Of a DNA stretch of 64,000 nt, positions 1 to 59,500 are shown piece after piece. The notes under the pieces were generated by a model. That model saw only the letters and a program-made list of their open reading frames with translations, was not told the origin of the DNA and did not search any database. This DNA comes from Telopea speciosissima (taxonomy: Eukaryota; Streptophyta; Magnoliopsida; Proteales; Proteaceae), in contig NC_057918.1 of assembly GCF_018873765.1 (NCBI RefSeq), positions 63,676,871 through 63,740,870 of the forward strand, written 5' to 3'. The position numbers and the translations under genes were made by a program. Numbering within the stretch: the stretch's first letter is position 1; each line of letters begins with the position of its first letter.

Positions 1-440
1 TAGGCAGTCCCTACAAGAAATGATACCTCTATGGGTGTATAAGAACATATAACTTTCTTTTGATTTCTCTTTTGCCTCATTCGTAAACACTTTCTTTTGG
101 CATTATACGTTCTCTGGGTTTTATTATATTCTAGTCTCAATATCTTTCCAATCTCCCATTTGATTGTGACTTAACAACATTAAATTCGAAAATGTTCTAC
201 TCTCAACTCCTTGGAGGTATTGAGGCAGCCTTTTGATTTTCACCAGTAATTTATTTGCCTTGAATTTCAGTTATTGTGAAAAAGAAAAATTGTCTGTGTA
301 ATTTCCTTGTTGATCATCTTGATATTATTTAGAGATTTGGGGCTTTTGTTGTCTCTTCTACCCTGGCTTATTTCTCAACATGCTTTGGCTCACTCATTAC
401 TGGTATAATATGCAAAGACTTACAGCCCAATTCACATGCT

Positions 441-619
441 AGGGTGCAGGTCAGGATCAGTCAGGGCCGGATCGGGCTAAGGAAAACCCTGGCAGGGTCG
501 AGCTGGGTTGAGGGTACCTTAGGCTCTAGTAAGGTTGGGTTGGATTTGGGTTAATGTTAAGGCCTCAAGGGTTGGGCTAGGGTTTAGGGCAGGCCCGGTC
601 CGGCCCATTGACACCCCTA
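441..619. repeat. GGGTT-rich short repeat, possible hAT-like MITE
   Basis: A 180-base stretch dominated by GGGTTGGG and CAGGG words, bounded by imperfect inverted ends (AGGGTGCAGGTC and its near complement before 619). Equivalent copies sit at 28374-28556 and 48734-48916. A second member of the family lies upstream of alpha-SNAP in each unit. The hAT assignment is inference from the end sequence. Confidence 0.45.
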
Positions 620-2256
620 CCATGTTCTAAATGTATGTCTGACCCAATTATGAGAAAGAGGTGAACCAAACTGGGACACCCACCGACCCACCTTATCTCT
701 CTTTCTCTTGGATAGAGATCCTCTCCAATTCTTTAATCTGGCAATTCTCCGAAGTGCCACCTTCCCCACCTTCCCTGTGCCACACCTGGCACAAAATGAT
801 CTAATGGCCAAGAATGGTTTGCACCATTCCATGAAACTCTACCCGTTTTGGAAACCGGATCCTCTCAACCCAAGTAGATGGGCTTTTCAATGGGGAAGAG
901 AAATGAATCGAACAGAGGGGATTTTCTCAAGTCCGGAGACTCGTGGAAGGAGAAAAAGCAAGCATTTTTACAGAAACTAAGTAGGGAAAGTGGAGTTGCC
1001 AGAGATGGGTTTCCGCCTCTTAACTTGTAGGTGGGCTCTAGTTACAGATATTTTCAGCTGGCAACGCAACGTCTCCCTTCAATGTAGTTCTGCAGAACGA
1101 AAGGTTTTTGATCTTCGCTTAATAGCTCACGTAGATGTTTATGAGCCATGTTCTAATCTCCCAAAATAAGAAACAGGGGAATGAAATAAGTTGCACAAGC
1201 TTCAAATCGCTTTGAGGTGGAACTTCATGGAATAGTTGAAGAGATTTCAACAGAAAAAAGAGAAATAAAATTAGGAAGGAAACCAAAGGGTTTGCGACAG
1301 TGAATAGAGACCCCAGATGAGGGATTATGTGAATCCCAAGTCATTCTCTTTAAGGCAGGACAAAGTAAGAAGGAAACCAAAGGGACCCAGATCAGAATCT
1401 TCCCAACTCATAAACAAAATGTTAGATTTCTTCACGCTGTAATACTGCTTACCCCATCTTGAATAGAATTCTCTCTGAATTTTTAGCTTTTTATTCGAAA
1501 GAAAGAAAGAAAAACTTTTCTTTTAAGAACCCATTCTTTTCTTCTCTCTGGATGATGATTTGTTCCCAATTTTCAGATCGAGGTTTTTGTTAAGCGTTTC
1601 TTAATGGTAACTCTGGTTTGTTCTCCTGACAGGTCCATCCCAAGGAGCTTGTCGTCTTCCTAATCATCTATTTTCTGTCAATCTCTTATTTCTTCATCAA
1701 AGTAGAAGAGTCCGTTCTATATAGGAAGGGAACGGAAACCGGATGCTGGGTAGGGGTGTGAGGAAAAGATAGAGAACGGATGGGGTGTGGTGTGTGGCCC
1801 GTGTGGGTGATACAACGGAGGAGAGATGAGATTAAGGTTGCAGGTGCTGCAAAGAAAAAGTTTTCCTTTTGGGTTTAAAAGTCTAATTGGGTTTTTCGAA
1901 TCAAGTAAGTAAAACGGATTGGTAGAGCATGAAAGGGTGCAAAGAATTATCAGGCATTAATCTTTTTACGCCACGTATCGCATAGGAAGGTGGCACTACC
2001 GGAAATCGCCAAATTAAAGAATTGGAAAAGATCTGTTTCCGGATTGTTATCCCTATCTCTCTGCCTCTTACACTCACGCGCCACGCTGCACTTGCCTTGC
2101 TCATCCCGGTTTGTCGATTCGTATGGGTTCTAACGCCTGCCATATTCATATGGGTCTTCTTACGTCTTATAAATGTGGGCCCAGCTTTAAATTAATAGGG
2201 CAAATCTTTATTGGGCTTATAAAGGAGCCAACGGCCAACGTGCATCACGCCAGGCA

Positions 2257-2260
<4 letters not shown>

Positions 2261-2295
<35 letters not shown>

Positions 2296-2476
2296 CGTCG
2301 TCACTGAAAAATCCAAATATCGGAATGGGTCCGTTGTCCGATTCTTCTCATAGGGAGTGAAAATGACAATTTAATCACATCCGAGCAATGTGTTCGGACA
2401 GACCCTGGCCCTTAGCCCTTCACTACAGTACCATTCCATTTTCGGCATATACAATGAATCTGAGCTCAGAAGAACG
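2261..2476 (-). mobile_element. Poly-A-tailed retroposon of unknown family
   Basis: Begins with 35 T residues (2261-2295), read as the A tail of a minus-strand insertion, followed by about 180 bases absent from units 2 and 3. The flanks match the other units on both sides. In units 2 and 3 the same site holds a different poly-A-tailed element, a tRNA-derived SINE. I see no A or B box here, so the family is unknown. Confidence 0.45.
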
Positions 2477-2749
2477 GGTTTGGCTAACATCACAGTCACA
2501 GAAACAAACTAACAGGTTTTTGGTTTTTTTTCTCGGTTCCTTCCGTACACCCACATGGGATCCTAGAGAGAGATACCATTAGACTGTAACGCTCACAGTA
2601 TATATGAGATTAGCGTCTTCGAACTATCATCGAGTGATCGAGTGAAACTGTAAGATCGGGTCTATTTTATCACAATTATGCCACCAGGGGTGAAATACAG
2701 GAAATTAAAAAGTTAACAAAAGATTAATGCTTAGCTGCTTTGAACTTAC

Positions 2750-3161
2750 CGATTATGATGAGAAAAATGATCAACGAACCCATGTTGGTGAGCATCACAC
2801 AAATCTGCAACGCTAGTGATCCAATTCTCCCAAACGCCTCTCTCATGACTCCGGCGTATGTCGTCGAATTGCCGGCATTTGTATACTTCAGGAGGAAATC
2901 AACTGAAACTTCGGAGAGAATAGCGATGATCACGATCATTGCAAAGGCCGGAACGACGCCTAAGACCTTGAGAGTAGCCGGAATCGACATAATTCCGGCT
3001 CCAATAATACTTGTCGACACGTTGAACACCGCGCCGGAGACCGAAGCGCCGCCATCGGTGTCTGTGCTCTTACTCTCTAGTGGTGGCCTGAGCTCCGGGA
3101 GGAGCGACTCGTGAATATCTGCTTCTATCTTCTCTTGCTTCTTCATCTTTGGATCTCTCAT
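2750..3161 (-). CDS. AVT6-like amino-acid transporter A, exon 1 (rest outside window)
   Basis: Start codon at 3159-3161; exon ends at a GGTAAGT donor (2744-2750 on the complement). It encodes about 137 residues: a soluble N-terminus with MRDPKMKK and LLPELRPPLES, then the family signature STSIIGAGIMSIPA of the first membrane helix and further helices ending in LIIFLIIIG. This is the N-terminal third of an AAAP-family transporter of the plant AVT6 group, known from Arabidopsis as exporters of acidic amino acids from the vacuole. Compared with copies B and C it has a four-residue insertion (QEKI) and about eight substitutions, but no visible break. Whether the gene is complete cannot be judged because exons 2-5 lie left of the window. 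Confidence 0.85.
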
Positions 3162-4109
3162 TTTGGAAGAAGAAGAAGAAGAAAGAAGATTTCAGTCTCA
3201 GTCGCTCTATAAGATGCGTGAATATCTGCTTTTGTCTTCTCTGGCTCTGTTTCTTTACTACTAATATTTTTTGGGTTTTTTTTTAGGGAAAATTACATCC
3301 CCTCTCTTGTACTTTTTCCTAATTACACCTTTCTCCCTTTGATTTTTCCACCTTACATACGATTCCCCATAGTTTCTGAAAAATTATTAAGACCCCCCTG
3401 CCGTTAGCATCCGTCTGTTAAATGCTGATGTGGCATAGTTAGTATTTTATAATGTCCAAACTAACCCTAGGTCATTGTGAGATGACCCATTTACCCTTTT
3501 GATAAAAAACGAAAATTAGATGGGAGAATGACTTACCCTTTCTTCTATCTCCCAACTTCATCTTCAACCTCTGAACTGTGAAATCGTCAGCGACATACCC
3601 CCTACCATTGCCTGAGTCTTTTGCTCTGCGGCTAGAGAAGAAAGGCGCGGAGAACACACACTCGCAGTTGTTAAAATAAATAGTTTTTTGAGAATTCATG
3701 TAGAGGGTGGGGGAGACATGTCCCTTGTTACCACAAGTTCTCACCCACCCTAAGGATTGGCGATCTCAATGACTACATCGCACCACCGTCGCAAGCTTGC
3801 GTTGTTTCTCTAACGGGTCTTAAGGCAACCATGATGACAAAGCAGGATAAAACAGTGGTAGTGGTTCTAATTAGGTTATCATTCTGTGTTCTGGAAATTT
3901 TCAGGGGGAAATTAGACTGACTGCCCTCTGAGTTATTCATTGTTGTTTTTTCTTTCTCTAATAGTGTCAATAAAATTAAGGGGTTTCCTTGATTGGTTTG
4001 TGGAGTCTATATATGAATAGATCCATCAATTGGTTGTCTCTAGTCATCCTCTGTTGCTTACTTCTTCTTCTTCTTCTGCTATCGAAACCCATCTGATTCT
4101 CTTCAGAAA

Positions 4110-4154
4110 ATGGCAGAAAACTTGCCCAAATCCATTTACGATTTCACTATCAAC
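4110..4154 (+). pseudogene. Captured first exon of a glutathione peroxidase gene
   Basis: The ATG at 4110 opens a 15-codon frame reading MAENLPKSIYDFTIN, followed directly by GTATAT. Plant cytosolic glutathione peroxidases begin MA..SPKSIYDFTVK, and their first intron falls at about this point, so this looks like exon 1 with its splice donor, preceded by a TTC-rich leader (4020-4109) and followed by intron sequence. The catalytic cysteine exon is absent. It is a gene fragment carried by the surrounding Mutator-like element. The match is short, so confidence is moderate. Confidence 0.5.
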
Positions 4155-4785
4155 GTATATGGTTTCCTATACTATTTTAGCTTCTGATATATTTTCCCCC
4201 CTCTATTCTAAGTTTCTTTGTTGCAACTTCATTCCTGATCTCTGTCCTTCCCGACTATTTTCACCTGAATCTTACTCATGCTACAGTCTTAGATTTTCTG
4301 GCAAGGGCCCTTTCACAGATGGATATGACAATACGGTTTTGGGATTTCATGGATTTTGGTTCAGATTAAGGTTGCACAATTCATGGTTCACCAGAACTGA
4401 CACTCTTCAAGCTCTCCAATTGAAGCACTCAAAAATGGAAAACAAGTTTGCCCAGAAACACAAAACTTTAGATCAAATCAGATGCAATCCCAATCTCCCA
4501 AAAGATAAAAGGTACTCGAAATTTGAAAAGCAGATGTTTATGGGTCCCTAGAAGTCTTGAAGTGCAACTACCCCTTCCCCGACCCAACCCACCCTTCCTA
4601 CCACAAAAGGTCGGAAGAACCAGAGGTCCACATGTTTTTTTTTTTTTTTTATTTTATGTGAGCAAGACGGAGGTTGCAGCGGTGGTGGGGTTTCTAATGT
4701 TTTAGTCCTTCCAGCAGCAATCTTCAATGATCTTTTACCGATAACCCCTTCTTTCTCCTCTAACCTCTTCTTATTTGTTCGCGGT

Positions 4786-4863
4786 GGAGGAGGAGGCGGC
4801 GGTGGCAGTGGTGGTGGTGGTGGAGGAGGCAGCGGCAGCGGCGGCGGTAGTGGTGGTGGTGCT
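4786..4863. repeat. GGT/GGC trinucleotide repeat
   Basis: About 78 bases of GGT, GGC and GGA triplets inside the Mutator-like element. The minus strand reads as a proline run within an open frame. I regard that frame as a by-product of the repeat. Confidence 0.85.
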
Positions 4864-5202
4864 AGCAATGGAGTAGGAAAGATATGGGTGTTTTAGGTTG
4901 AAAATGATGAAAATGGTAGAATTGGAAATGCAGTTTTAATTTGTTAGTAAAGAGTAATATTATCTTTTCAAACCATTAACTAACAACATCCTAACACGGT
5001 CAACCATAAGGAGTTAAAATGTAAGATGAAAAAATCAAAGGGAGGAATGTATAATTAAAGCATAATACAGGGGAGGAGACGTAATTTTCTCCTTTTTTTT
5101 TAATATTATATTAGATGAGTATGTTATTTAGCTTATATTTTATTATTATGGTCATCTGGCAGTGAAGATGATGGATAGAATAGATGAAGACGGAAGAATG
5201 GG

Positions 5203-5446
5203 ACTTGATAGATGTATGGAGACGGAATAATGGGATAGGTGGGTGTTTCTGTTTGGACTGTTTGCTCGGCCATCCATGGGTGACCATGTTTATAAAATAT
5301 GATACGGATACTCGTATCGGTCGGACTTCATAGATGTATGGAGACGAAATAATGGGATAGTTGGGTGTTTCTATTTGGACTGTTTGCTCGGCCATCCATG
5401 GATGACCATGTTTAAAAAATATGATACGGATACTCGTATCGGTCGT
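5203..5446. repeat. 122-base tandem duplication (unit 1 only)
   Basis: Two adjacent copies, about 5203-5324 and 5325-5446, each containing GATGTATGGAGACG, TTTGCTCGGCCATCCATGG and GATACGGATACTCGTATCGG. Units 2 and 3 have one copy (about 31475-31590 and 51805-51920). Confidence 0.85.
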
Positions 5447-5610
5447 GGTACATGTCGATATAAATTAATAATCTCCTAATTTCAGTTATGGCATGAAGAA
5501 GGACATTGATCTTGAATAATGTGATAATCCCCTTTTAAATTGGCTTTTATTCAAAACAAATCCATTATGACAAATGACTTCATTGCTCATTAATTATTTT
5601 TATGGGAGAA

Positions 5611-5731
5611 TTTTTCTGTGCTAGTGGCGCAGGTTGTGCCTAAACACATGGGGGTGGGCAAAATGATCACCCTGCCCCCCTGAATGGTAGGCCCATGTGT
5701 TTAGACGCAGGCTACGCTGCGGCACAGAAAA
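5611..5731. mobile_element. Foldback MITE
   Basis: About 120 bases that fold on themselves: TTTTCTGTGC at the left against GCACAGAAAA at the right, and CTAAACACATGGG against CCCATGTGTTTAG inside. At the same site units 2 and 3 carry a foldback element of different sequence. Confidence 0.7.
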
Positions 5732-5786
5732 CATCACCCATTATTTTATTATATCAAGAAGAAAAAGAAAGAGAGAGAATTTTGTA

Positions 5787-6350
5787 GCCTTGAAGTTGAC
5801 GTAAAAAAAAAACCTATGATAGACTTGAGTGAGGATTTATTGAACCTATTCTTTTAAAACTAGGTCTCTTAGAATTGGGTAAAAACGTTTATGGCATGTC
5901 TTACTATTGTTCTTATGGTTTTCTTATAAATGGTGCATCACGAGGTACTATTACTCCATCACATGGTGTGAGACAGGGTGGCCCATTATCTCCAGCTTCA
6001 TTTATTTTATGTTCTCATGCTTTGAGTTGTCTCCTATTGCAACATGAAATTTCTGGTGATATCCATGGTGTCAAGGTCAAGAATCGAGCAATGCCTATTT
6101 CACACTTATTATTTGTTGATGATAGTTTCCTATTTTCTAAAGTTAGATTGGAAGAATTGTGCACGTTGATGGACTGTCTATCTACATACTGCAAGGCATC
6201 AGGGCAAGCTATTAATTTACAAAAGTCATGTTTGACTTTCTCACCAAATATACTCGTACTAAATGGAAGAGGTGGTTCTCCAGAATTTTGCATATTTAAA
6301 TGACAATGGTCCTAAAAAATATCTTGGACTCCTAGTTGATTTTGGTATTT
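5787..6350 (+). mobile_element. Truncated LINE reverse transcriptase fragment
   Basis: Residue patterns of the L1-type reverse transcriptase core are visible: YDRLE, FLINGASRGTITPSHGVRQGG, PLSPASFILCSHAL, HLLFVDDSFLFSK (the catalytic FVDD) and YCKASGQAINLQKS, then KYLGLLVDFGIS. Only about 560 bases of the LINE remain. The frame has an internal stop and shifts. It joins directly to a copia fragment at about 6350, an arrangement shared by all three units. Confidence 0.85.
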
Positions 6351-7385
6351 CTTTATATGGACTTGCTCAAGTTTGAACCCTCTTTATTCATATATCGGGC
6401 TGGTACGCATTTGCTTTGTGTTCTTGTATACGTTGATGATATCTTGGTTACCAATTCTAACAGCTCTTAAGTGCAACGACTTCTTCATTAGCTTGCATTG
6501 AATTCTCAATTAAGGATTTGGTTCCATTGAGTTTCTTCTTTGGTATTGAGGTTAGTGGCCACTCTCAGGGCCTACTCGTTTCCCAGTCACAGTATATCAG
6601 TGACCTGCTCAATTGTGCAGGGATGACCAATTGCAAACCGGTCCAAACACCCAGGGCTATCGCTCTAAAACCCTCAATTACAATGGTTGCCCCAGTTGCA
6701 GATGCTACACATTATCACTCCATCGTAGGGATTCCAATATGTCACGTTGACTTGCCTTGATGCCGCCTTCGCTGTAACCGTGCCTGCCAGTATATGTACT
6801 TGCCCACTGAGGAGCACTGGTCTATGGTCAAAAGCATTTTACAATGTGTCAAATGTACTGCTACACTTGGTCTTCGCTTGGAAAAGGCTCCTCCCTCAAT
6901 CTCCAGGCCTTCACTGATGCCGATTATGCAGGGAATAACACAGACCAAAAGTCTACTGGTGGCAATGCTATATTCCTTGGCTCTAATTTGATCTCTTGGT
7001 CCTTTCGCAAGCAAAAGACTATTGCTCGGTCTTCCACCGAGTATGAATACAAGGCCTTGGTTGACGTGGCCGCCAAACTTATCTGGTTGGAATCCCTCTT
7101 TCAAGAGCTTGGCTTTCCTCTTCGTAGTCCTCCGATTCTTTGGTGTGACAATATCAATGCCACTTATGTCTATGTAAATTCGGCCTTTTATGCTCGCACT
7201 AAGCATGTAGAGATCAATTTTCATTTTGTGCGTGACAAAGTTGCCAAAAGGAAGCTTCAGGTTCAATTTATTATTGACCAAGATAAAGTTCTCAGTGCAA
7301 CATAACTCTATATTGGCTCTCGTATTGCGATTGGACTTTTATCACAACATTCGGATTCTATCCGTATCACATATACATAGTAGTA
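6351..7385 (+). mobile_element. Fossil Ty1/copia pol fragment (RT to RNase H)
   Basis: Ty1/copia relic with the end of reverse transcriptase and the RNase H domain (SSTEYEYKALVDVA, LWCDNINATY, TKHVEINFHFVRDK are family patterns). It is broken in several places and lacks gag, protease and integrase. The same fossil occurs in units 2 and 3, so it predates the duplication. Confidence 0.8.
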
Positions 7386-7739
7386 CTATGGACAGTGTGC
7401 GCAAACCCATTCGCTTCTTTTATGATCTTCAGGTAAAACCCTTGCCTTGCTGTACTTTTACAGAGATCCAAATGTTTTGTCATTAACCATTTCTTTCCCT
7501 ACCAAATCTGTCCGGTAACTCTCTCGTCATTACTTTTCATCCCTGGCCTACCTACTACTTTATCTGTAGTTTCTATTTCCTTTCTCCAGCCTCTTTCTAC
7601 TCTCTGCCCTACTCTCTCCTTGCTACAGTCCTTCCCATTACCGTAGCCTTTTCTCGGAATCATCACGGACAACATTACCCATTCCTACTCATGTTTATGA
7701 GCTACCCCGCCTCCTCCCTTACCAACCCCAAACCCCACA

Positions 7740-9297
7740 CCGCCACAAGATGATCCCTCACCTGAAAATGACGTTGAAGATGATCCCTTCATCCTTGATG
7801 ATGAAACAGAGGACAGACTAACACAATCATGGACCAATACCCTGATTGGTAAGGTGCTGGAGGGAAAAAGATTTCGATCTTAGTTAGTCACAGAAGTCCT
7901 CCTCAACGCCTGGAATACTAAAAGGAGAGTAGAGTCACATCCCTACATGGAACGGATTTTTCTCTTCCACTTTGAGCATGAATTTGACTTGGAGAACGTT
8001 CTGATGGAAGGCCCTTAGACAGTTGTAGGCAGTCTCTTAGTTCTGGAACGGCGGAGAGAATCTAGGGATTGGAGTTTCAATCAAGTTGATTTCTGGATTC
8101 AGCTGCATAAGGCACCGATGGAGATTTAGGACCTCAAATTAGCGATGGACCTCGGTGCTAAGATTGGAAAACCACTGCAAGCAATGGTGATTGATGGTTT
8201 TCAAGCAGGTGTAAGAGTTCATTTTCTTCGAGTTCGCGTTTCTGTGGATATACTCAAGCCTCTACGAATCTCCATTTCCCTCAAAAGACAAAATGATGCA
8301 CAATGCCAGATCATCGTTAAATATGAACGATTGTCGGTCTACTGCTATTTCTGTGGTATCATAGGACATGAGGAACAGAGGTGTGTTGCCCAGTTTGAAA
8401 CCCATCAACAACACCGTAATAGCCATGGCTGCTCTCCACATTCCAGATGTGTGCATCTGCCTCCCAACCGTTATGGCTCGATAATATAGGGATTAACACC
8501 ATCAGCGCGAACTATTGAGTAAGCAGCTACCATCATAGCAGAGGAGCTCCAAGCCACCGCCATTGCTGTAAATTCCGGTACAGGGGAGATTGTCGGAGGA
8601 AGGAGAGAGGAGTGTCTCAACAACACCAATGCAGCCAACTCACAGTCTGAATCCACACGTACTAGTACAGGTTCTGAACAGGCGTGCTCTCCAACGCTAC
8701 ATGCAATCAGGGGGGACATGATATCTGACACAGCAGGTAACCAAGGTCCTGGAACTTTCTCCCATCAGGCCTAGTCTTTGTCCATTATTGCTAACCATCA
8801 GTGCCACCCTTATTTGTCATACCCTTACCCCAACATTCCTAATGACCAATCATCAACCAATATGCCCATCCCATCGCATACCATACCATCAATCATAAAT
8901 CAATTCCAATCATCTCAACAAAACCAAGAGCTGAACCCATTTAATTACCTTAGAACTCAGTTAAGCCAAAGATCGGACCTTACGAACACTCTTTTGGCCC
9001 TTTTACCTCAGCTCTCAACAGTTTCTCTCTCTAATCCGGGCCCAGCTACCCTATCGACCAACCCCTACCCAAGAAACACTATCGCTTACACCCAACCCAG
9101 AATCAATGGTCCAACCTTGGTGCAGACACATTCTGAGACAACGCAGGCTTTCCCTGCCACCCTTCCTCCCCAAAGGCTTGGCCCTGAGTCTACCACTCCA
9201 CAACACTCCCTGGAACCTGCTAAGTAGTACCCCAGTTTCCAACACCAGTACCCAAATTCCCAACCCATCCAGCACAATCTACTGCCACCCAAAGTGA
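7740..9297 (+). pseudogene. LINE ORF1 relic (DUF4283-like plus CCHC zinc knuckle)
   Basis: The N-terminal part has acidic segments, then a DUF4283-like core (YMERIFLFHFEHEFDLENV, LVLERRRESRDWSF). A zinc knuckle of the form C-x2-C-x4-H-x4-C, CYFCGIIGHEEQRC, lies at about 8343-8384. A long Pro/Ser/Gln-rich tail (8778-9227) follows. In plant L1 elements ORF1 binds the element RNA. Internal stops, for example near 7880 and 8128, break the frame. Confidence 0.75.
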
Positions 9298-9474
9298 ATC
9301 ATCCCCCCCCCCCCTTCGAAACCACCAAAGGCCAAGCCCAAGGTAAAGGGAGCAAGGAAAACGAGAACAACAGCTCAGACAGAACAAGAACCAGGAGCTT
9401 CTGCTTCAAATGTGGATCATTTTTTACAGTTTTGCCCCATGGCGGCTAGGGGAAATCAGCCCCATGGGTCACTA

Positions 9475-12400
9475 TGAGGCTTCTCATCTGGAACTGCCAA
9501 GGGTTGGGGAGACCCTTGACGGTTTGATTGCTCCAGAATCTCTCCTCCAAGGAAAAGCCGGATGTCATGTTCATTATTGAAACCAGGTGTGCACTTCCTA
9601 AACTTAAAAAGATTTGTAAAGTTCTGAATTCCCCCTCCTGTTTTAATGTTGATCCCAAAGGTACGGCTGGGGGCCTCGCCTTACTGTGGCAATCAAATGT
9701 CCATGTCGATGTGCTATTTTTGAATGGTCATGTTATTGATTGTTCAGTTGTAATCAACAAAGAGACTCCCTTCTACCTTTCATGCATTTATGGAGATCCT
9801 GTTCGTGCAAGAAGGCAATCGGTGTGGGATAGGCTTGTTAATATTGGAGAACATCGAGTGGATGACTGGATTTGTGTGGGAGATTTTAACTCCTATTTGG
9901 GGTGGTATGAAAAAGCCGGGGGTTCTCACAACAATGGGCATGACTCAAAAAGGTTTCAGAATATGATTAATAGTTGTAAGCTAATGGACCTTGGAGCTAA
10001 AGGTCCGAGGTATACAACGAGTAATCGGTGACACGGCTGTTCCAATATCCGAATTCGTTTGGACCGTGCTCTTGCAAACCAGCCATGGAGGAGTCGCTTC
10101 AGCGATGCTGTAGTTTTTGTGAGACCAACGGTGGGTTCAGACCACAATCCGATCACTATTGACTCGGAGGGTGGCAAAATCAATGGGGTTCACCCATTTC
10201 GGTTCGAAACGGCTTGGTTGCGACATTCCCAATGCAAGATTATTGCTACCAAGGCCTAGTGTGTGCCTACTACTGGGACTGCGGCTCTGCAAGTTCAGAA
10301 GAATATGGGAAACTGTAAGAAAGATTTTAAGAAATGGAATGTTGAGGTGTTTAGAAATATCCAAACTTCCATTCGGAATCTCCATCAAGAATTAGAGTGG
10401 TTGCAAAGTAAGGACCAATCTGAGTATTCCCAGGCTCGGATTAACACTGTTATTGCTCTGTTGGGAGAGGAGATGGCTAGGGAGGAGATACTTTGGAAGC
10501 AGAAGTCGTGTATTGCTTGGTTAAAGGAAGGAGATTTGAATACGGGCTTTTTCCACACTTCTATCATCCAACGTAGGGCATCGAACAAGATTCTAAAACT
10601 CAAGGATAGCTCTGGGGCTTAGATGACATCACAGGCGGAAGTGAACCAGCTTATTCAGAATCACTTTTCTATTGCTTTTACTTCAGAAGCTATGGACGCA
10701 GAGGCTTTACATATGGTTCTGAATTCAGTGAATCCTGTGGTAACGGAAGACATGAACACTATGCTTTGTCGCTATCCAACTAGTGGGGAAGTCCATGATG
10801 CTATCTTCTCCTTGGGGGCTTTAAAGTCTCCGGGACCTGACGGCTTACCCCCCAACGTTCTTCTAGAATTTTTGGGATCTTGTTAATGCTGATTTATTCT
10901 CTTTTGTGGATGATTTCTTTACTATAGGTCTTATTCCTTCAACTATGAGCAAGTCCTTCATAAGCTTGATCCCGAAGTCTCCCAACCCAGAGGTAGTTGA
11001 GCAGTTCCGTCCCATTAGCCTTTGTGGGGTGGCCTTTAAAGTAATAACCAAGATTACTGCTAGGCGTCTCCAACAGATCTTTAATCAACTGGTGTCTCCA
11101 ACGCAATCGGCTTTTAAACCGAATCGCTCGATCTCCGATAATATTCTGGTGGCACATGAACTTTTCCACTACATTAAGAAAAGGAAGAAGGGGAGGAAAC
11201 GTTTCCTAGCTCTCAAGCTTGACATGAAGAAGGTATATGATCGCCTCAAATGGCCTTTTATTGAGGCTATGTTGTCAAAGTTGGGCTTTCAGCAGCATTG
11301 GATCTCTTTGGTTATGGCATGCATTAAATCGGCGAACTATATATAGCTTCCTGATCAATGGGACAGTTCAAGGCGATATCATCCCTTCCAGAGGCATTCG
11401 CCAAGGGGATCCACTATCCCCGACCTTGTTCATTTTATGCTCTCAGGCCTTGATAGCAGTCATCAACCAAGCAGAAGAAGGTAATATGATCCAAGGAATT
11501 AAGGTCCATAATCGTGCCCCACCAGTCTCACATTTGTTATTTGTCGATGACTGTTTGTTTTTCTCGGAGGCGAAGTTCGAAGGCGAAGTTAACTGAAGTG
11601 TGCAATCTCAAAGCATGCCTTGAGCTTTATTGCAAAGCCTCAGGTCAAGCAATAAATCTAAAAAAGTCAAGCATCACATTCAGCCCCAATACCCCATCAA
11701 AGTTTAAACGATGGTTCTCTAGAGTGCTCAAGGTTCCATATGGTGACGGTCCAACAAAATACTTGGGTTTGCCGATCGAGTTTGGTATTTCCAAAGCCCA
11801 AGTGTTTAGAGACATCAATGATAAAGTGGCCGCTCGTATCCAAAATTGGAAACACCAGTTGCTATCTCCTACAGGCCGTGAAGTCATGCTCAAGTCGATC
11901 GCATTCGCAATGCCCAACTTTGCATGCTCCCATTTCAAAGTTCCAAAGTCAACTCACAACAACTTGAGGAAGATGGCAGCAGATTTCTATTGGGGTAAGG
12001 TGGATGATACTTCTAAAATTCATTGGGTTGTTTGGAACAGAATGTGCAAGTCTAAGAGGAAAGGGGGCTTGGGCTTTAGAGACACGTCTACCCACAACTT
12101 TGCCTTACTTGCAAAGGTGGCTTGGCGACTTTGGGATCAACCAGATTCACTTTGGGCTAAGTTTATCAAGAGTATCTACTTTCCCCAGTGTTCTTTCTTG
12201 AAAGTCAATATGGGTAATCAATCGTCATGGGCTTGAAGAAATCTATTGGAAGGGAGGAAAGCTCTTATGGCGGGCTTTTGTGGCGGATTGGAGATGGCAA
12301 GTCAGTTCGGATTTGGGAGGACAACTGGGTCCCTTCCCTTGTAGGCTTTAAAATCCAACATTCCAGACCTCACGGATGCAACCTAGTTACAGTGGCAGAT

Positions 12401-13600
12401 ATAATTGATCCTGAGGCTCGGGTTTGGAGGCAGGATGTGCTATCCACTTTCTTCCACCCGGTTGATGCGTGTGCCATTAAGAAGATTGTCCTAAGTTTCT
12501 TTCCCAATGATGATACTCTTGTATGGGGAGCGGCCAAGAATGGGTTATTTTCAGTTAAGTCCGCCTATCACAACATGTCGAATATCCAAACTCAAGTTGA
12601 ATCCACTAGCCCAACTTCCTCAAATCAAAATCGGCATGAACAAATCCCAGATTGTATGTGGACTAGGATATGGGGTTGCCATACCTTGCCGAAAATCAGA
12701 AATCTACTTTGGCGTGTTTGTGCACGAGGCTTAGCAACGGGAGAGGCTCTTCAACGTCGAAGTATCCCAGTTGATCATTCTTGTCAGCATTGTGGAGCTT
12801 AAACTGAAAGTGTCGATCACATTTTCCTTGGTTGCGAGTTTGCTAGAGCAGTGTGGTTTGGTAGTTCTCTCTCCTACCTCAGCCCCCAAACTCGGGACCC
12901 AAAATTTAATGTGTGGATCAAGAGCTGGGGTGCTATTCAGATTGGGACAAAAAAGGAAAATAGGGAGGTGTGTGGCCTTGCATCCTTTATCTGCTAGGCC
13001 ATGTGGATAGCGAGGAATGATCTTATTTTTAATCAAAGAAGCTGGATCCCAATTGAGGTCATCCAATCGGCCCACGAGGCACACAGGGAGTTTCTCAAGG
13101 CGACGGCAGCAAGTGTAATGCCCCAAGCTCCTACCCCCACGCTGAGAAACATCATATGGAGACCTCCGGAACTGAGTATTTTGAAACTCAATTGTGATGC
13201 TTCTTTGGCGGCAGATTCTAGTAGCGGAGGCTTGGGTTATGTTGTGCGAGATTACCAGGGCCATTATCTTCTTGCCTATTCTGAACCAGGTCACTTTGGA
13301 TCGAGTTTTATGGGAGAAGCTTTAGTTGTGAGATCTGGCCTCCTCATCTGTATAAGGGAGTGTTTCGACAGAATCCATGTTGAATCCGATAATTTGGATC
13401 TCATTTCCATCCTGACTACCAGCAGGCCGGGGCCATTGGAAAGCTTCCATATTTCTAGAGAGTCTAACTATGTTGCAGACCATCTAGCCAGGAAGGCCAT
13501 GTCCGTTGGATGTAGGACAGCTTGGCCGATATCCTCTCCTTGGCTCCAGGATCTTTGTAATCTGGATGCCTCGGCTTTTTCATCCTCTTTCTCTGAATAA
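9475..13600 (+). pseudogene. LINE ORF2 relic (endonuclease, reverse transcriptase, zinc finger, RNase H)
   Basis: Starts MRLLIWNCQGLGRP at 9475. The endonuclease keeps GDFN (9879-9890) and SDHNPI (10137-10154). The reverse transcriptase keeps FRPISLCGVAFKVITK, RGIRQGDPLSP and the catalytic FVDD (11540-11551). A zf-RVT-like region with WTRIWGCHTLPKIRNLLWR follows near 12660-12800. RNase H starts with the first catalytic Asp in NCDAS (13196-13198) and ends with YVADHLARKA. The stop is at 13598-13600. Internal stops and shifts (for example just after RPLTV, about 9526, and around 10258 and 12786) mark it as dead. Confidence 0.85.
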
Positions 13601-13622
13601 ATTCACCTTTTACCAAAAAAAA

Positions 13623-14243: not shown

Positions 14244-14334
14244 GTCACGAGGAACCTTCTTTCCACATTTTATGGTTCACAATACTTTGATGGTGGCCTT
14301 GTATAACATACGATTGATGGTATGAATTGGGAAA

Positions 14335-18610: not shown

Positions 18611-18614
18611 TTAT

Positions 18615-47200: not shown

Positions 47201-50200
47201 GTGAGTTTAAGGTCCCCTATTGTAATAGCTATATTTATACTTTTATATATATATAAATAAATTTTATATGGTAATACATAGATATATAAAATAAAAAAGT
47301 AGAAGACCAAAAAGACATACGGCCGAACCCTAAATGACTAAATCCCAAAAATGAAAAATCCTTTTCATTCTAAATTCCTAATAGCTAAAGGCAAAAAACT
47401 GAGCAAGGGGCTAAGGGCGCCACTAGAGAGTCTCTGGCTGAAGGCTGAAGCTGAAGCAGGAGGCTCTAGTCTACTTGTTCGTAGTCTGGAATTGGGGTGT
47501 CCATGTAGTCTATAACAGGAATTGACCATCTCTTCTGGCGGTTCTGATTTAGTGAGTGCTTTGCTCTTGGCTCTAGTGATTTGCTTTATATCCTTGGATG
47601 CCGCCTTAGGCTTTGCTTTCTGGGGCTGTTTCTCTTGGAAGTTGAAGCAGGAGAGTGGAAGCTAAAGCTTGGTCATTCTCTCTTTCCTCGATCTCCTTCG
47701 ATTTCAGCTGATCAACCCAACAACAAAGTAGGTTTTTAAGTGCGGAAATCCCATTCTCCAGCAAAACCTATCCTGTCAAAACTCCCCGCCCTTCTGTAAG
47801 ATTCTTGAAGGTAACCTCTGCACTTGGCCAAAATGGCACGACAACAATTTCTTCTAATTTTTGTCCTTCCCATCTGACCTCCTCCACTGCTTCCCCTCAA
47901 GCCCCCTTCAAATTCTCTTCTTTAATCCTTTTACCTTTTTTAAATTCATCAAACAACAGAGTTGCAGATTCTGTAATCACTGACGAGGTAAAGATTCATG
48001 AACACATCTTCTAATCTCTCTCTTCGATTTCTGTCTTTGAAATCTTTTCTTCTTTTTTTTCTTTTTTTAATCTGGGCTGTTTAGATTAAATTTGTGTGTT
48101 ATCTTTCCCATCCAATTCGTTTATTTTGTTATAGTTTCATGAAGAACCGATAATTCCTCACACGTCATATTACTTGACTTAATTCCTCTCAAGTTTCCTG
48201 TCCGGTCAGGTTCGTAGGTTCCTATCATAGGGGACCGGAAATGATGACCTCACCCCCGCCCGAACACACTACCCGGGTGGGGTGAGGTCGTCATTTTCGC
48301 CCTCCCTATGAGAGGAACCTACGACCCTGACCGGACAGGGAACCTGAGAGGAGAAAAAATCACTTTTACATCCTGGCGTTATATGTTCTCTAGGTTTTAT
48401 TATATTCTAGTCTCAATATCTTTCCAATCTCCCATTTGATTGGGACTCAACAACATTAAATTCGATAATGTTCTACTCTCAACTCCTTGGAGGTTTTGAG
48501 GCAGCCTTTTGATTTTCACCAGTAATTTATTTGCCTTGAATTTCAGTTGTTGTGAAAAAGAAAAACTGTGTCCGTGTAATTGTTGCTTATTTGGTAATCC
48601 TTGTTGATCATCTTGATATTATTTAGAGATTTGGGGCTTTTGTTGTCTCTTCTACCCTGGCTTATTTCTCAACATGTTTTGGCTCACTCATTACTGGTAT
48701 AATATGCAAAGACTTACAGCCCAATTCACATGCCAAGGTCCGGGTCAAGGTCAAGGTCAAGGTCAGTCAGGGTCGGGTTGGGCTAAGGACAACCCTGGCA
48801 GGGTCGAGCTGGGTTGAGGGTACCTTAGGCCCTAGCAGGGTTGGGTTGGATTTGGATTTATGTTAAAGCCCCTAGGGTTGGGCTAGGGTTTAGGCCCGGC
48901 CCATTGACACCCCTACCATGTTCTAAATGTATGTCTGACCCAATTATGAGAAAGAGGTGAACCAAACTGGGACACCCACCGACCCACCTTATCTCTCTTT
49001 CTCTGGGATAAAGATCCTCTCCAATTCTTTAATCTGGTAATTCTCGAAAGTGCCACCTTCCCTGTGCAACACCTGGCACAAAATGATCTAATGGCCAAGA
49101 ATGGTTTGCACCATTCCATGAAACTCTACCCGTTTTAGAAACCGGATCCTCTCAACCCGAGTAGATGGGCTTTTCAATGGAGAAGAGAAATCGAATAGAG
49201 GGGATTTTCTCAAGTCCGGAGACTCGTGGAAGGAGAAAAAGCAAGTTTTTTTACAGAGACTAGTAGGGAAAGTGGAGTTGCCAGAGATGGGTTTCCACCT
49301 CTTAACCTGTAGGTGGGCTCTAGTGACAGATCTTTTCAGCTGGCAACGTCTCTCTTCAATGTAGTTCTGCAGAACGAAAGGTTCTTGATCTTCGCTTAAT
49401 AGCTCACGTAGATGTTTATGAGCCATATTCTAATCTCCCAAAATAAGAAACAGGGGAATGAAATAAGTTGCAGAAGCTTCAAATCGCTTTGAGGTAGAAC
49501 TTCATGGAATAGTTGAAAAGATTTCAACAGTAAAAAGAGAAATAAAATTAGGAAGGAAACCAAAGGGGTTGCGACAATGAATAGAGACTCCAAATGAGGG
49601 ATTTATGTGAATGGGATTCTGTGATTTTGGTGTTAATCTCTCTCCCGCCATCTAAATTTTTTTTTTTCTCCACTGTAAAGTCACCCAACGGGTTTGTATT
49701 GCATTTTTTTTTTATATTCAATTTTCCTACTTCCTCTTTTTCTTCTTCTTCGACCATCGCCCCATCCATACCCATCTTTAAAAAGTTGTGTTTTTTTTCC
49801 TTCTCCAACTTGAGGAATCGGAATGCTTTCCCAAATTCCAATCCCAAGTCATTCTAAGGCAGGACAAATTAAGAAGGAAACCAAAGGGACCCAGATCACC
49901 TGTTTACCCCATCTTGAATAGCATTTCTCTCCGAATTTTTAGCTTAAGAAAAACTTTTTTTTTTAGAATCCATTCTTTTCTTTTCTCTGGATGATGATCT
50001 GTTCCCAATTTTCAGATCGAGGTTTTCGTTTTTTCTTAATGGCAACTCTGGCTTGTTGTCCTGGCAGCTCCATCCCAAGGAGCTTCTCATCTTCCTAATC
50101 ATCTATTTTCTGTCAATCTCTTTTTTCTTCATCAAAAGTACAAGAGTCTGTTCTATATAGAAAGGGAGAGGAAATCGGATGTTGGGTGGGGGTGTGAGGA

Positions 50201-51564
50201 AGATACTGAGACGGGAAGAGAATGGATGGGGTGTGGTGCGTTGGGTGAGAGAAGCAGAGATGAGATTGAGGTTGCAGATGCTACAAAGAAGAATTTTTTC
50301 TTTTGGCTACAGGTGATCGAGGCCGACACTTTTTTCTTTGTTTTGGGTTTACAATCCTAATCAGGTTTTTCGGATCAAGTAAGTAAAACGAATTGGGAGA
50401 ACATGAAACGATGCAAAGAATTATCAGCCATTAGATCTTTTTCACACCACGTGTTGCACGGGAAGTTACACTGCCGGGAATCGCCAGATTAAAGAATTGG
50501 AGAACATCTGATTCCGGATCGTTATCCCTGTCTCTCTACCTCTGACACTCACGCGCCACGCTGCATTTGCCTTGCCCATCTCGGTTTGACGATTCGTATG
50601 GGCTCTAATGCCTGCACTTATTCATATGGGCCCTCGTACGTCTTATGGATGTGGGCCCAACTTTAAATTAATAGGGCAAATCTTTATTGGGTTTATGAAG
50701 GAGCCAACTGTTATAAAAAAAAACATATGAAGGAGCCAACTGCCAAAGTGCATCACGCCAGACACTTTTTTTTTTTTTTTGCGGGGTTGTTTTCTGTGCT
50801 GTATCAGAGAGTCGATCCCTTGACCTCTTGAGGAACATGCCCTCAATTTGCAATGTCTCCAACCAGCCAGCTAGCGGTTGTTTGCAGGTTTAACTAACAT
50901 TACAGTCAAAGAAACAAACTAACAGGTTTTTGGGTTTTTTTTCTCGGTTTTTTCCGTACACTTCACATGGAATCCTAGACAGAGATGCCATTAGAGCGTA
51001 ACGCTAACAGAATTTGTGAGACTAGCATCTTCGAACTATACCATCTACTAGTGAGTGAAACTGTAAGATCGGGTCTATTAGATCACAATTATGTCACCGG
51101 GAGTTGAAGTACAGAAAATTTAAAAAGTTAACAAAAAATTAATGCTTAGCTACTTTGTACTTACCGATTATGATGAGAAAAATGATCAACGCACCCAGGT
51201 TAGTGAGCATCACACAAATCTGCAACGCTAGTGATCCAATTCTCCCAAACGCCTCTCTCATGACTCCGGCGTATGTCGTCGAATTGCCGGCATTTGTATA
51301 CTTCAGGAGGAAATTAACTGAAACGTCGGAGAGGATAGCGATGATCACCATCATTGCAAGGGCCGGAACGACACCTAAGACCTTGAAAGTAGCCGGAATC
51401 GACATAATTCCGGCTCCAATAATACTTGTCGACACGTTGAACACCGCGCCGGAGACCGAAGCGCCGCCATCGGTGTCTGTGCTCTTACTCTCTAGTGGTG
51501 GCCTGAGCTCCGGGAGGAGCGACGCGTGAATATCTGCTTCTTTTTTCATCTTTGGATCTCTCAT
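44212..51564 (-). CDS. AVT6-like vacuolar amino-acid transporter C
   Basis: Five exons on the complement: 51564-51165, 46768-46616, 45928-45725, 44904-44436, 44335-44212; 1350 bases, 449 residues plus stop. It matches transporter B except for, by my reading, two residues: His for Arg at the end of exon 2 (LLRHV) and Ala for Gly in exon 3 (SVLLAIVFVG). Exon 1 proteins are identical. All splice sites are kept. The same two TRIMs (intron 3), LINE stump (intron 2), foldback, GGGTT repeat and SINE (intron 1) are present. Such close identity of two intact copies fits recent unequal crossing over. Function as for copy B: AAAP-family export of amino acids, probably from the vacuole. Confidence 0.9.
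45036..45317 (+). mobile_element. TRIM in transporter C intron 3
   Basis: Counterpart of 24685-24954, with GAGAT on both sides (45031-45035, 45318-45322), primer site TGATATCAAAGC and purine tract GCGGGGGAG. Confidence 0.8.
45336..45627 (-). mobile_element. Second TRIM in transporter C intron 3
   Basis: Counterpart of 24973-25264 in opposite orientation to the first TRIM. Confidence 0.7.
46218..46478 (+). mobile_element. LINE 3' stump in transporter C intron 2
   Basis: Counterpart of 25855-26115, ending in the same A-tailed LINE 3' end. Confidence 0.7.
48182..48355. mobile_element. Foldback MITE in transporter C intron 1
   Basis: Counterpart of 27821-27996, nearly identical in arms and loop. 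Confidence 0.75.
48734..48916. repeat. GGGTT-rich short repeat (unit 3)
   Basis: Counterpart of 441-619 and 28374-28556. Confidence 0.5.
50766..50880 (-). mobile_element. tRNA-derived SINE in transporter C intron 1
   Basis: Counterpart of 30438-30551; A- and B-box-like words on the complement and an A tail. Confidence 0.6.
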
Positions 51565-55008: not shown

Positions 55009-55095
55009 CTGTATGAGGGTGAGCTAGACCGAGTCACAAATGAATTCCAAACCCAATTAAATTCTGGATTTCATGATTAGGATGGACAGATGGAC

Positions 55096-55526: not shown

Positions 55527-58407
55527 ATGTCGGATGCTGCAAAAGGAGAAGAATTCGAGAAGAAAGCTGAGAAGAAACTTAATGGCTGGAACCTCTTTGG
55601 TAGTTCTAAGTTCGAAGACGCCGCTGAGTTGTACGAGAAGGCTGCTTCTTCCTACAAACTCGCTAAATCATGTAATCTATCTCTATTTTCCATTTCAATT
55701 GCTCTTGATTCATTTTGTTTTTGTTACATTTCAATTCATAGACATGAAATTGTTATGTACTTTCTCGTAACAATCCCTCATTTTTCCTTATCCAATTGGC
55801 TAATGTTGATCTAGGGTTTACATTGATCATTTTCTTAGAATTTTTTTTGGATGCATCATTTTCTTAGAATTGGTTCCTGAATAAGACGTTTGCTGATCCA
55901 TCTGTGATTGATCTAAAAGAATATTCTTCTTTTGGGAGTTGAACCTATTGGGTGAAAGGCTCGGTGCAAATGTATGTAGGTTTAATTTTTTTGTTTGGTT
56001 CACCATTTTTTGTTCTTCATTTAGATACACTCATCTTTATCCATTAAAGTCTAAACAATTCATGTCGGGTTTCTTCTAAGTTATTGAAATTCGAAACATG
56101 TTATGGAGACTCCATGGAACTTTTAGGAACCTACAGAATTTCCAGTAAAACATAGCATAGATATTGTCGGGAAATGATGAAGAATGGATGAACAAGCTGG
56201 CAATAAAATAATGACAAGTTGGGTAGACAAAGTATGTGCTGACTGACATGACATGTCTTTGACCAAATGTCCAAGTGGTCGTTGGTTCAGTCCAGTTATG
56301 CTATAGTCTCTCCCCCCTCCCCCCCCCCTCTTTTTCATTTCTTTCTTCTTTCTGTTTTGTTTTGTGTTTTGGGATGTAAAAAGATCACTTAAAAATTATT
56401 GAAGTTTCATTTGCCTTTGAAAGAAAAAAGTGCCTCCTCAAGAAAGCATGAATTGGTTTTTTTTGGTAGGCCTCTTGCCTTACTTGCCCAAAAATATTTC
56501 TTAGAATGGAACTTGAACTCTGACATACAGAATACTATCACAGATTGATATCTTCCCTCTATTTTGATTTTTGACTATAGTTCTTTACAGAATACTATCA
56601 GAGATTGATGTCCTCCCTGTATTTGACCATAGTTCTTTAAAATCAAATTGGATTAGTGGGATCTTGGTCTAGTTGGATTGTTGGAAAGGTGAATGATTTC
56701 TCGCATGACCTCGATGTCATGCAAAATAAACAGCCTCTCTGGAAAGCAGGGGTATGGCTGCATACATTATGACCCTCCCCAGACCCCGCTGTGGCGGGAC
56801 CCTCGTGCACTGGCTACACCTTTTTTTTTGGCTTAAAAGGAATGGTGTAATGAAAAACAGAATATGTAAAAGCAAAACCCAGTTTATAGACTCCTAAAAG
56901 TAGAACCAAGAATTGTGCTAGAATTGACAGCCCCAAACAAACCCTTCAAATTTGACTAGACTGATTTTTTTGTTTTTGTTTTGGAAAGGACTGGACTGAT
57001 ATATGTGTTAGGATACAATAATTAAGCCCAAAACACCAAATCCACATTCGCTTCCAAAATACGAGAAATTAAAATTATATCAAAATCCACACCCGTATCC
57101 CTGGAAGACTTGGTCTCCCTCCATTGTTTATGATTCGTTTGCATTTGGTTTTGGTATCTAGGTTATGGTTCTTGCTTCACATCATTTAAACAGGATGATC
57201 TTTTCCCTGAGACTTTTTATTTTCTTTCTTTTTTTGTTGGGTTTTTTTGGGGGGGGGGGAGTAGCACAGTATGTGATCTTTCGTTCTTCAACAAAGGATT
57301 GGCCATATGGTCCGGGTAAGATGTACTTGTGGAATGGGTGGCATGTGGATGAGGCCTGGATATAATAATTGCTGGCTTGTAACAGTTTCGGCAATTCATC
57401 TACTTTGATGATTGAATCTTGATTCTCAGTTCATTGGTGTTTAATTTTGAAAATGTGCTGGTCTTTTTTCTTTTATAGCATTTGAAACACTGTTGTGAAG
57501 GCAATGCCCATGTGTGGCCTAGGCAACTAAGAGGTCCCTGTGGGTTTAGGTGAGCCTAGGTGATTTGAGCTAGATGCTCACCTAGATTTCCAGAACTGCC
57601 TAGGAGACAGGCATGCATTCAGGCACCATGGCTAGGCGACAGCATAGAGACACAAAATTAGTGATGCTCTTTACTAGGCTGTTATTTGTTTTGATCTGTG
57701 TGCCATATATTTGTGTTACAGTGTGTCCTTTTTTTTTAATGAATGTAAAGATTCTGTTTATTTCTTTTCTTTTACTGTTCTGAGCAAGTGGTATATATCT
57801 CTTTTTATTATATCAAATGCTTGATATTTGAGAGTGGAAAAAAGGAAAGAAAACTGAAATGAAAGTCTCGAGGCAGCTAGGGCCTGATCTCTTCTTCTCT
57901 TGGTCTTTGTACTTCATGTTTGAGAGATTGTTCTTTTAATTTTTTAATATTGTAGTGGCAAATTTTGATTTAAATTTGGTATAGAAGGAATTCAAGCAAT
58001 ATGAGCCGAAGTTTGCCCTGTGTAGTTCCTGGACTAAGCAATGCCTGGAAGACCAGAGGGTCTGTCACCTAGGTTTGGCAAAGCATGTTAACAACTGATT
58101 TGAAATATCTCAAAAATAAGTTGAGTTAAAGTTTTATTACAGATATAATAAGTTCATATTACATGCTTGTTAAGACCTCTAATATTTGTTTTTTTTTCAG
58201 GGGATAAAGCTGGAGCTGCCTACATCAATGTAGCTGATTGTCATTTGAAGGTACTGATGTATATATCATTTGGTTAAGCACTTAAGTTCTTATTATTTTT
58301 CCTTTGTGACACTGTTAAATATTCTCTTTTTCAGTCAGAAAGCAAGCATGAAGCTGCTTCAGGCTATGTCGATGCTGCAAAATGTTACAATAAAACCTCC
58401 CCTAAAG
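55527..58407 (+). CDS. Alpha-SNAP copy 3, exons 1-3 (remaining exons beyond window or lost)
   Basis: Exons 55527-55671, 58201-58250 and 58335-58407, all with GT-AG borders and an open frame of 89 codons. It keeps the conserved residues [17 protein letters not shown] and [18 protein letters not shown], unlike copies 1 and 2, so it is the best candidate for the original gene. Exon 4 is not found between 58408 and 64000, which is filled with gypsy and copia sequence. Either intron 3 is very long and the gene resumes to the right, or it too is broken. Alpha-SNAP is the soluble adaptor linking SNARE complexes to NSF in vesicle traffic. Confidence 0.85.
55672..58200 (+). other. Alpha-SNAP 3 intron 1
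   Basis: No gene. Matches unit 2 up to about 56055, then differs at sites where units 1 and 2 agree. A stretch of about 110 bases at about 57938-58060 is absent from units 1 and 2. Confidence 0.65.
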
Positions 58408-59500
58408 GTTATTTTGCTCTTTACGCATAAATATAATTTTTTAGTTATGCAAGGTGTTTTTTTTTCATCAGAAAAAAATTATATTGTTTTATCATTTAAA
58501 ATCAATGATGTTATCCCACCCTGTGAAAGATATTCTTTTGATGTTCATTTTGCCATTAGTTGGGGTCATCTTAGCTTTGTCTCTAGTTTTGCTTGAAGGA
58601 TATCATTAGTTGAATTTATCATAAAAAATAAGAATTTTTCAGCCAAAGTATATGACATCAATCTGAGGATGAGAGAGAGAGTAATGGAGTTGACTCGACC
58701 TACCAACAGGTATTAGGATGCAACTATGTATACAGTATTGTAGACTACAGTTTAAAGCCACCAGAGAAAATTAATGACTCAAAATCACAAGATCTGATTT
58801 CCCTCACACCCTGGTTTAGTGAAGGTGTGATGGAGTGGAAAAAATCTCCAAATTGGATGTAAATCTGATGGATGGATAAGACTGCTGGGTTTCAGAGTAG
58901 AAAGTAATGTTTTTTGAAATTTAGGATCATCAAGAACTGACAATGTGACACTCTGATCAGAATCAAATTTAGATCGTATGTTCCCTTTGGAGTGAGGAAC
59001 AAACCTTCCATACCTCATTCCAATCCAAGGGCTAGATGTCCGTAGAAGATATTTCCTATCTGCAGCAGGAGAAAACCCAAAACAGGGGTACCGCAAGGTG
59101 TAAGGACAGCAATAAAACTGAAATCAAATTAACCCTGGTTCTTCCCAATGTTCAGGAGTGGGGAACCCTTACTAATTCTACAGACACAATAGAAGAAAGT
59201 AAATCAATAGGGACTGTACTTGCTTGTCTCCGTACTACCACAGGGAAGAAAAATAAGAAGAATAGAAAAAGGGGATATGGATCAGATTTCCCACCTGAGC
59301 TTGACCAGAATCTCTCCAGTTGACCTCCGAATCTCTCTGAGGGGCTGCTGTCTCTCACAGATCATCGAAGCCAAAGCCAATGAACATTCTTTATTTGATT
59401 TGTGGGCTATGGCTGCTTACAGTTCACATATTTAAAGAATTGGAATTCCTCAATCATATTGGCTGTAGAAAAACAGCCAGCCAATAGGATTAAAGATACC

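Follow-up and report, generated by a model that had tools for sequence, protein, structure and literature searches.

The soybean Rhg1 locus is a 31.2-kb tandem block of Glyma.18G022400 (an amino-acid transporter, AAT), Glyma.18G022500 (alpha-SNAP), Glyma.18G022600 (PLAC) and Glyma.18G022700 (the wound-inducible gene WI12), and since it copies transporter and alpha-SNAP together, the dosage effects of each are hard to part. Has the same gene pair been amplified in a plant other than soybean, and if so, which of the two genes has gained complete copies? We address this question in a 64,000-bp stretch of the Telopea speciosissima genome (NC_057918.1, positions 63,676,871 to 63,740,870, hereafter the window), whose gene content is that of plant nuclear DNA and where large direct repeats carry AVT6C-type transporter and alpha-SNAP sequence in each unit. 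Our best reading is that the two neighbour genes known from Rhg1 were amplified here independently, in a way that added whole transporters but no whole alpha-SNAP. That an old AVT6C-alpha-SNAP pair here forms a tandem array adding whole transporters only, with a predicted rise in transporter dosage, is a proposal that we hold with a confidence somewhat above even.

Tandem units with a divergent transporter-alpha-SNAP pair

Self-blastn of the window resolves three long pairs of repeat blocks (21555-30381 and 41918-50742, 98.5% identity; 30365-37630 and 50694-57936, 97.2%; 14580-21547 and 34949-41940, 98.2%), together with less similar pairs towards both outer ends (98-1334 and 48374-49612, 91.2%; 37639-38893 and 58058-59313, 91.4%). 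With blocks 7.0-8.8 kb long and 97.2-98.5% identical, and with the Pfam matches of the two gene products (Aa_trans, 8.1e-55; SNAP, 3.8e-27), a chance origin of the likeness is excluded. In all three units alpha-SNAP exons 1-3 are adjacent to and divergent from transporter exon 1, as in the Rhg1 pair, with the transporter on the minus strand and alpha-SNAP on the plus strand, so that the head-to-head order proposed by an earlier, sequence-only reading of this DNA is borne out.

That reading had further described three units of about 20.4 kb, each with a transporter. The period holds for alpha-SNAP, whose three start codons (14835, 35203 and 55527) are spaced by 20,368 and 20,324 bp, but not for the transporter, whose exon 1 starts lie 28,074 bp apart between units 1 and 2 and 20,329 bp apart between units 2 and 3, and of which unit 1 shows exon 1 only. 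A model of three equal, complete units was rejected on these grounds. The spacing is uneven because unit 1 has extra DNA, including a long interspersed nuclear element (LINE), between both genes; from start codon to start codon, transporter and alpha-SNAP are 11,674 bp apart in unit 1, 3,968 bp in unit 2 and 3,963 bp in unit 3. Unit 1 is homologous to the other units only from 98/99 onward, a point within transporter intron 1, and its transporter exons 2-5 may therefore be absent, interrupted or beyond the window. Bases 1-97 have no match at the expected place (27918-28014); homology may stop there because of an insertion to one side or the other, or because the older duplication truly ends at this point.

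Table 1. Features of the array and its right flank, in window coordinates; P denotes one of two diverged copy types (see text).
Feature	Position	Strand	Details
Unit 1	98..18506	.	left part older (P-type); right end within alpha-SNAP intron 3, after exons 1-3; additional DNA, among it a LINE found in unit 1 only
Unit 1 transporter exon 1	2750..3161	-	splice donor GTAAG at its end; no other exon visible before the window edge
LINE reverse-transcriptase fragment, unit 1	5833..6300	+	between both genes; Pfam RVT_1 3.9e-11
LINE in unit 1 only	7386..13634	+	endonuclease, reverse-transcriptase and RNase-H-like pieces; A-run 13615-13622
Unit 1 alpha-SNAP exon 1	14835..14979	+	
Unit 1 alpha-SNAP exon 2	17407..17456	+	
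Unit 1 alpha-SNAP exon 3	17541..17613	+	last exon found
Junction of units 1 and 2	18507..21292	+	filler with direct repeat (20-bp core at 18511 and 18591), then 5'-truncated LINE with terminal A-run
Unit 2 transporter	23861..31235	-	5 exons: 31235-30836, 26406-26254, 25565-25362, 24553-24085, 23984-23861; intact, 449 amino acids
Unit 2 alpha-SNAP exons 1-3	35203..38000	+	35203-35346, 37794-37843, 37928-38000; frameshift in exon 1
Copy-switch interval of unit 2	35558..35674	.	unit 3-like leftward, unit 1-like rightward; within alpha-SNAP intron 1
Junction of units 2 and 3	38894..41683	+	filler (28-bp direct repeat at 38890 and 38970), then 5'-truncated LINE with terminal A-run
Unit 3 transporter	44212..51564	-	5 exons: 51564-51165, 46768-46616, 45928-45725, 44904-44436, 44335-44212; intact, 449 amino acids
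Unit 3 alpha-SNAP exons 1-3	55527..58407	+	55527-55671, 58201-58250, 58335-58407; 89 codons open
Right flank beyond the array	59314..64000	.	SH3_Tf2-1 (60378-60506, -); Chromo below cut-off (60151-60303, -); Copia-type gag (63222-63998, +)

Whole transporters beside alpha-SNAP exons 1-3

Units 2 and 3 each encode a full AVT6C-type transporter in five exons with an open frame of 449 amino acids, and the two proteins differ at 2 residues; where three complete transporters had been supposed, two are thus visible. The domain is full-length, as residues 34-437 of the 449 in the unit 3 protein match Pfam Aa_trans (PF01490) over profile positions 2-401 of 410. The window transporter is 64.0% identical to AVT6C, 63.6% to Rhg1-AAT and 48.7% to AVT6A, values that serve as a lead only. 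The AAT-Rhg1 reference used has the published length of 436 amino acids and is 61.0% identical to the AVT6C reference used, against a published 58.72%; the comparison covered these two and AVT6A. A PDB search with the transporter gave one weak match, to proton-coupled amino acid transporter 1 (2.1e-4).

The alpha-SNAP genes are represented in all three units by exons 1-3. The unit 3 copy matches Pfam SNAP (PF14938) over profile positions 2-90 of 282, the N-terminal tetratricopeptide-repeat (TPR) region, as well as alpha-SNAPs in the PDB (best 2.2e-15). Exon 4 and beyond, the C-terminal two thirds or so of the protein, were not found in the window, flank included, either with a plant probe or by Pfam, which covered 73 open reading frames (ORFs) of the flank; the best scores of the C-terminal probe, 26.2 and 23.5 bits, fell on exon 1, through internal TPR similarity, and it reached 19.2 elsewhere, with 20 shuffles spanning 19.2-23.9. 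The earlier view that the alpha-SNAP copies are truncated accordingly stands for units 1 and 2, which are cut in intron 3; it does not extend to unit 3, where the window runs 5.6 kb past exon 3 and the remaining exons could follow beyond position 64000.

In units 1 and 2 the repeat ends 893 bp past exon 3, and beyond the break come a short filler with a direct repeat, a 5'-truncated LINE and the 3' side of the next transporter; unit 3 exits the repeat at the same place (59313), into a flank with retroelement pieces. A LINE merely inserted into alpha-SNAP intron 3 was considered and rejected, because the sequence past the LINE is the transporter 3' side and because the flank of unit 3 matches only internal repeats and nothing else in the window. 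With the repeat ending in intron 3 at the LINE junction, each further unit adds a complete divergent transporter and alpha-SNAP exons 1-3 only. As read from this gene structure, the main effect of the array would most likely be more complete AVT6C-type transporters without more complete alpha-SNAP.

An opposite emphasis, in which the partial genes themselves matter, would have the truncated exons yield a short N-terminal polypeptide (89 codons when spliced) that disturbs SNARE recycling, by another route to an Rhg1-like effect. The frames of exons 1-3 are open in units 1 and 3, and between these units the exons have diverged less than the introns (3/268 against 138/3361 differing positions, p 0.012). 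Set against this, unit 2 is frameshifted, units 1 and 2 carry replacements at two places relative to unit 3 (A-to-P and E-to-G), and the C-terminal part, through which alpha-SNAP binds NSF, was not found; moreover, the low exon divergence may be due to conversion, because exon 1 sits where all copies are alike. We regard such a polypeptide effect as very improbable, and retain the transporter as the gene whose complete copies the array adds.

A hybrid middle unit and the history of the copies

Three-way alignment of the units reveals that unit 2 is composite. Across its left part (28015-35520), 535 of 647 informative sites are unit 3-like, 49 unit 1-like and 63 private, whereas across its right part (35521-38893) 111 of 149 sites are unit 1-like, 25 unit 3-like and 13 private. 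The divergences are correspondingly two-tiered: the older pair, units 1 and 3, differ at 597/6811 positions on the left (8.8%) and 135/3272 on the right (4.1%), while the recent copies differ at 136/7502 on the left (units 2 and 3, 1.8%) and 37/3310 on the right (units 1 and 2, 1.1%). The segments 18507-28014 and 38894-48373 are likewise 98.86% identical, a difference of about 1.1%. Judged by these divergences the units are unequal in age, and the assembled sequence reads as two diverged copy types in the order P, Q/P hybrid, Q. This is the product expected of unequal crossing-over between members of an older two-copy array, and an exchange inside alpha-SNAP intron 1 would have left such an arrangement.

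The same pattern would also arise if the third unit were an assembly artefact, that is, if two haplotypes of a heterozygous two-copy P-Q array had been joined end to end, the first contributing P and part of Q and the second part of P and then Q, with the hybrid as the mis-join. The recent copies are 1.1-1.8% apart, a plausible heterozygosity, and the switch adjoins a stretch in which all three copies are alike (97.8-98.8%, unit 2 35015-35514). The difference between P and Q is large for alleles, however, at 8.8-9.0% on the left plus unit-specific insertions, so that a tandem pair probably remains even under a mis-join, and the Q-like patch within the P-like part would require an extra event. 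We consider a mis-join unlikely but a real contender, and go on with unequal crossing-over as the preferred origin, under which the P, Q/P, Q structure would be a retained record of the exchange that produced the array.

Possible constraint on the transporter

Coding sequence in the transporter has changed less than its surroundings in both the recent and the old pair. Units 2 and 3 differ at 3/1350 coding positions against 71/5989 in introns (Fisher p 4e-4), and exon 1 of units 1 and 3 differs at 12/400 positions against 562/5716 in the remaining left part, transposable-element pieces included (p 5e-7); codon alignment counts 13 changes in the same exon.

Several observations weigh against our interpretation. 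The ratio of non-synonymous to synonymous change (Ka/Ks) in exon 1 is 0.51 between units 1 and 3 and 0.64 between units 1 and 2, values based on 5 and 4 synonymous changes. Between the unit 2 and unit 3 transporters the changes are 2 non-synonymous and 1 synonymous; the low coding divergence could be explained by conversion as well. Unit 1 may be without transporter exons 2-5. A mixed patch in unit 2 (36515-37514; 18 sites unit 3-like, 9 unit 1-like, 8 private) breaks a simple crossover and suggests conversion. One recent event, furthermore, predicts equal divergence on both sides, whereas 1.81% is seen on the left and 1.12% on the right, with the same imbalance in the old pair, so that conversion or additional events must have acted. 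Finally, the distance between the recent copies could also be expected of two haplotypes.

The array could also be real but neutral, transposon-bearing DNA having recombined by chance and the extra transporters being redundant, heading for loss and without dosage effect. LINE, Copia and other transposable-element pieces in the units and flank speak for this, as do the Ka/Ks values of the old exon 1 copies and the alpha-SNAP pieces of units 1 and 2, already altered or broken; that both visible full transporters are intact, and that coding divergence lies below that of the surroundings in both pairs, speaks against it. On balance a neutral array strikes us as rather unlikely.

Relation to Rhg1 and to gene order in other plants

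The Telopea array and Rhg1 have in common an adjacent transporter/alpha-SNAP pair, direct tandem repetition and a truncated piece of a neighbouring gene inside the repeat, which is alpha-SNAP exons 1-3 in the array and, in each soybean repeat, a truncated 3' piece of Glyma.18G022300 (PMC6712407). The units differ in length, about 20.4 kb against the 31.2 kb of soybean, and, unlike Rhg1, the array has its breakpoint in alpha-SNAP intron 3, which leaves units 1 and 2 without a complete alpha-SNAP. The absence of a WI12-like gene, noted earlier from the letters alone, is upheld, in that neither WI12 (SnoaL-like) nor PLAC8 domains occur among the ORFs scanned with Pfam, a set that takes in little of units 1 and 2 and no short exons. 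It comprised the 73 flank ORFs (at least 38 amino acids) and 99 others, namely 85 of the 89 of at least 62 amino acids over 41690-59300, 12 of the unit 1 insert and 2 of unit 2; of the remaining 4, the flank set covered 3 and a later scan the other. The array does not qualify as Rhg1 proper, since the searches, within their limits, turned up neither WI12 nor PLAC8 nor, for units 1 and 2, a complete alpha-SNAP.

The linkage of the two genes is nonetheless old, a suggestion of the sequence-only reading that is supported by the published gene orders of soybean, common bean and Arabidopsis and, following as it does from published synteny, already known. A table of soybean genes lists armadillo, AAT, SNAP, a bisabolene-synthase-related gene and a SnoaL-like gene in this order, and the same source places AAT and SNAP adjacent on chromosome 11 and close on chromosome 02, in addition to the Glyma.18G022400/022500 pair at Rhg1 (PMC5364553). 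Rhg1 AAT and alpha-SNAP are described as having a bidirectional promoter in common, in a passage that prints the gene number as 024400 (PMC6712407), and such a promoter fits the head-to-head order of the array. In Arabidopsis, AT3G56200/AVT6C is named as the orthologue of AAT-Rhg1 (PMC10152651), the published identities of Rhg1-GmAAT being 58.72% to AVT6C and 58.31% to AVT6D (PMC6637870), and AT3G56190 is the canonical alpha-SNAP, ASNAP (PMC8096068). These are the same two genes as in the array, presumably neighbours, to judge by their consecutive locus codes, and the passages on them mention no tandem repeat. In an older comparison a soybean rhg1 block, possibly without the copy-variable genes, stands opposite four Arabidopsis intervals, among them At3g55970-At3g56140 and At2g40130-At2g40400 (PMC1201151); by number these two end near AVT6C and AVT6D.

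Common bean carries the pair on Pv01 (PMC6312554) and, on Pv08, a cluster of the transporters Phvul.008G219100 and Phvul.008G219200, the SNAP gene Phvul.008G219300 and Phvul.008G219400 (PMC6366866). There, as in the array, the transporter is duplicated beside SNAP; the cluster differs in having a single SNAP for its two transporters, plus a bisabolene-synthase-1-related gene, with no 20-kb tandem repeat in the source's description (PMC6366866). The tandem duplication of EPSPS in kochia, transposon-mediated according to its title (PMC6808082), also yields tandem gene copies, but of another gene and under known herbicide selection. Two further candidate parallels were rejected: a sugar-beet tolerance locus, whose SNAP homologue is neither within nor next to it, and a Medicago tiling paper, whose main text lacks both 'SNAP' and 'amino acid transporter'. 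Outside legumes, no tandem AVT6C/alpha-SNAP array is reported in the titles and abstract starts listed by searches of open-licence PMC text. A search for relatives returned none in viral contigs and 13 pattern matches in prokaryote contigs, none confirmed, these being non-plant collections in which absence is uninformative.

Junctions, mobile elements and other open frames

LINE and Copia fragments lie between both genes in all units, the LINE reverse-transcriptase fragment of unit 1 having similar counterparts from about 32067 in unit 2 and from about 52397 in unit 3. The LINE at the junction of units 2 and 3, the junction copy to which the Pfam scan was confined, matches RVT_1 (1.4e-15), zf-RVT (1.1e-06) and RVT_3 (9.3e-22). 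In the filler before it (38890-38997, with a counterpart at 18511-18610) a 28-bp sequence occurs twice, 80 bp apart, of which unit 1 has a 20-bp core; the first four bases of the 28-bp repeat are the last bases of the alpha-SNAP intron, and the arrangement suggests a templated end-joining scar.

A further insert, at 33601-33778 in unit 2 and 53931-54102 in unit 3, is flanked on each side by a copy of CATAGTAGTA, a sequence that unit 1 carries once (7376). In unit 2 it has 50-nt arms (33611-33660 and 33720-33769) that are 82% complementary, while the unit 3 copy shows no inverted repeat at the same setting; it looks like a small inverted-repeat element. In the flank, the Copia-type gag frame is open up to the window end and matches Retrotran_gag_2 (1.3e-26) and zf-CCHC (1.6e-06), and the Pfam matches DUF1759, Treslin_STD and zf-CCHC_6 are located on the same frame. 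Other Pfam matches were CTC1_2 and LRR_TTSS, in ORFs of the units, and DUF4219, in flank ORFs; Rfam gave no match at gathering score in the window.

Beyond the transporter, units 2 and 3 repeat an open frame (21970-22434, plus strand; 42333-42647, plus strand) without a Pfam match in either copy. It may resemble the start of a plant ALKBH10-type protein, and it is possibly another truncated gene piece within the repeat.

Implications

In the mechanism that we propose, the extra transporters would be expressed and AVT6C dosage raised, while alpha-SNAP dosage would be unchanged, its source being a complete copy beyond the right end of the window or at another place. By analogy with AAT-Rhg1, the dosage effect may bear on amino-acid, perhaps glutamate/aspartate, handling, and possibly on the reactive oxygen species and vesicle responses reported for that protein. 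Expression of the extra copies, relevance of their dosage and any involvement of pests are steps that we infer. A bolder version, which we think improbable, would make the array a second, independently selected Rhg1 whose breakpoint inside alpha-SNAP raises the transporter dose alone; AVT6C copy number by itself would then be adaptive (for example root-pest- or nitrogen-related), and the pair would be a hot spot where amplification recurs.

By copying the transporter whole and alpha-SNAP only in its front part, such an array amounts to a natural separation of the two dosages that Rhg1 raises together. Should it be confirmed, one could test whether AVT6C dosage has a phenotype by itself, and whether tandem amplification of this old divergent gene pair tends to recur in several plant lineages.

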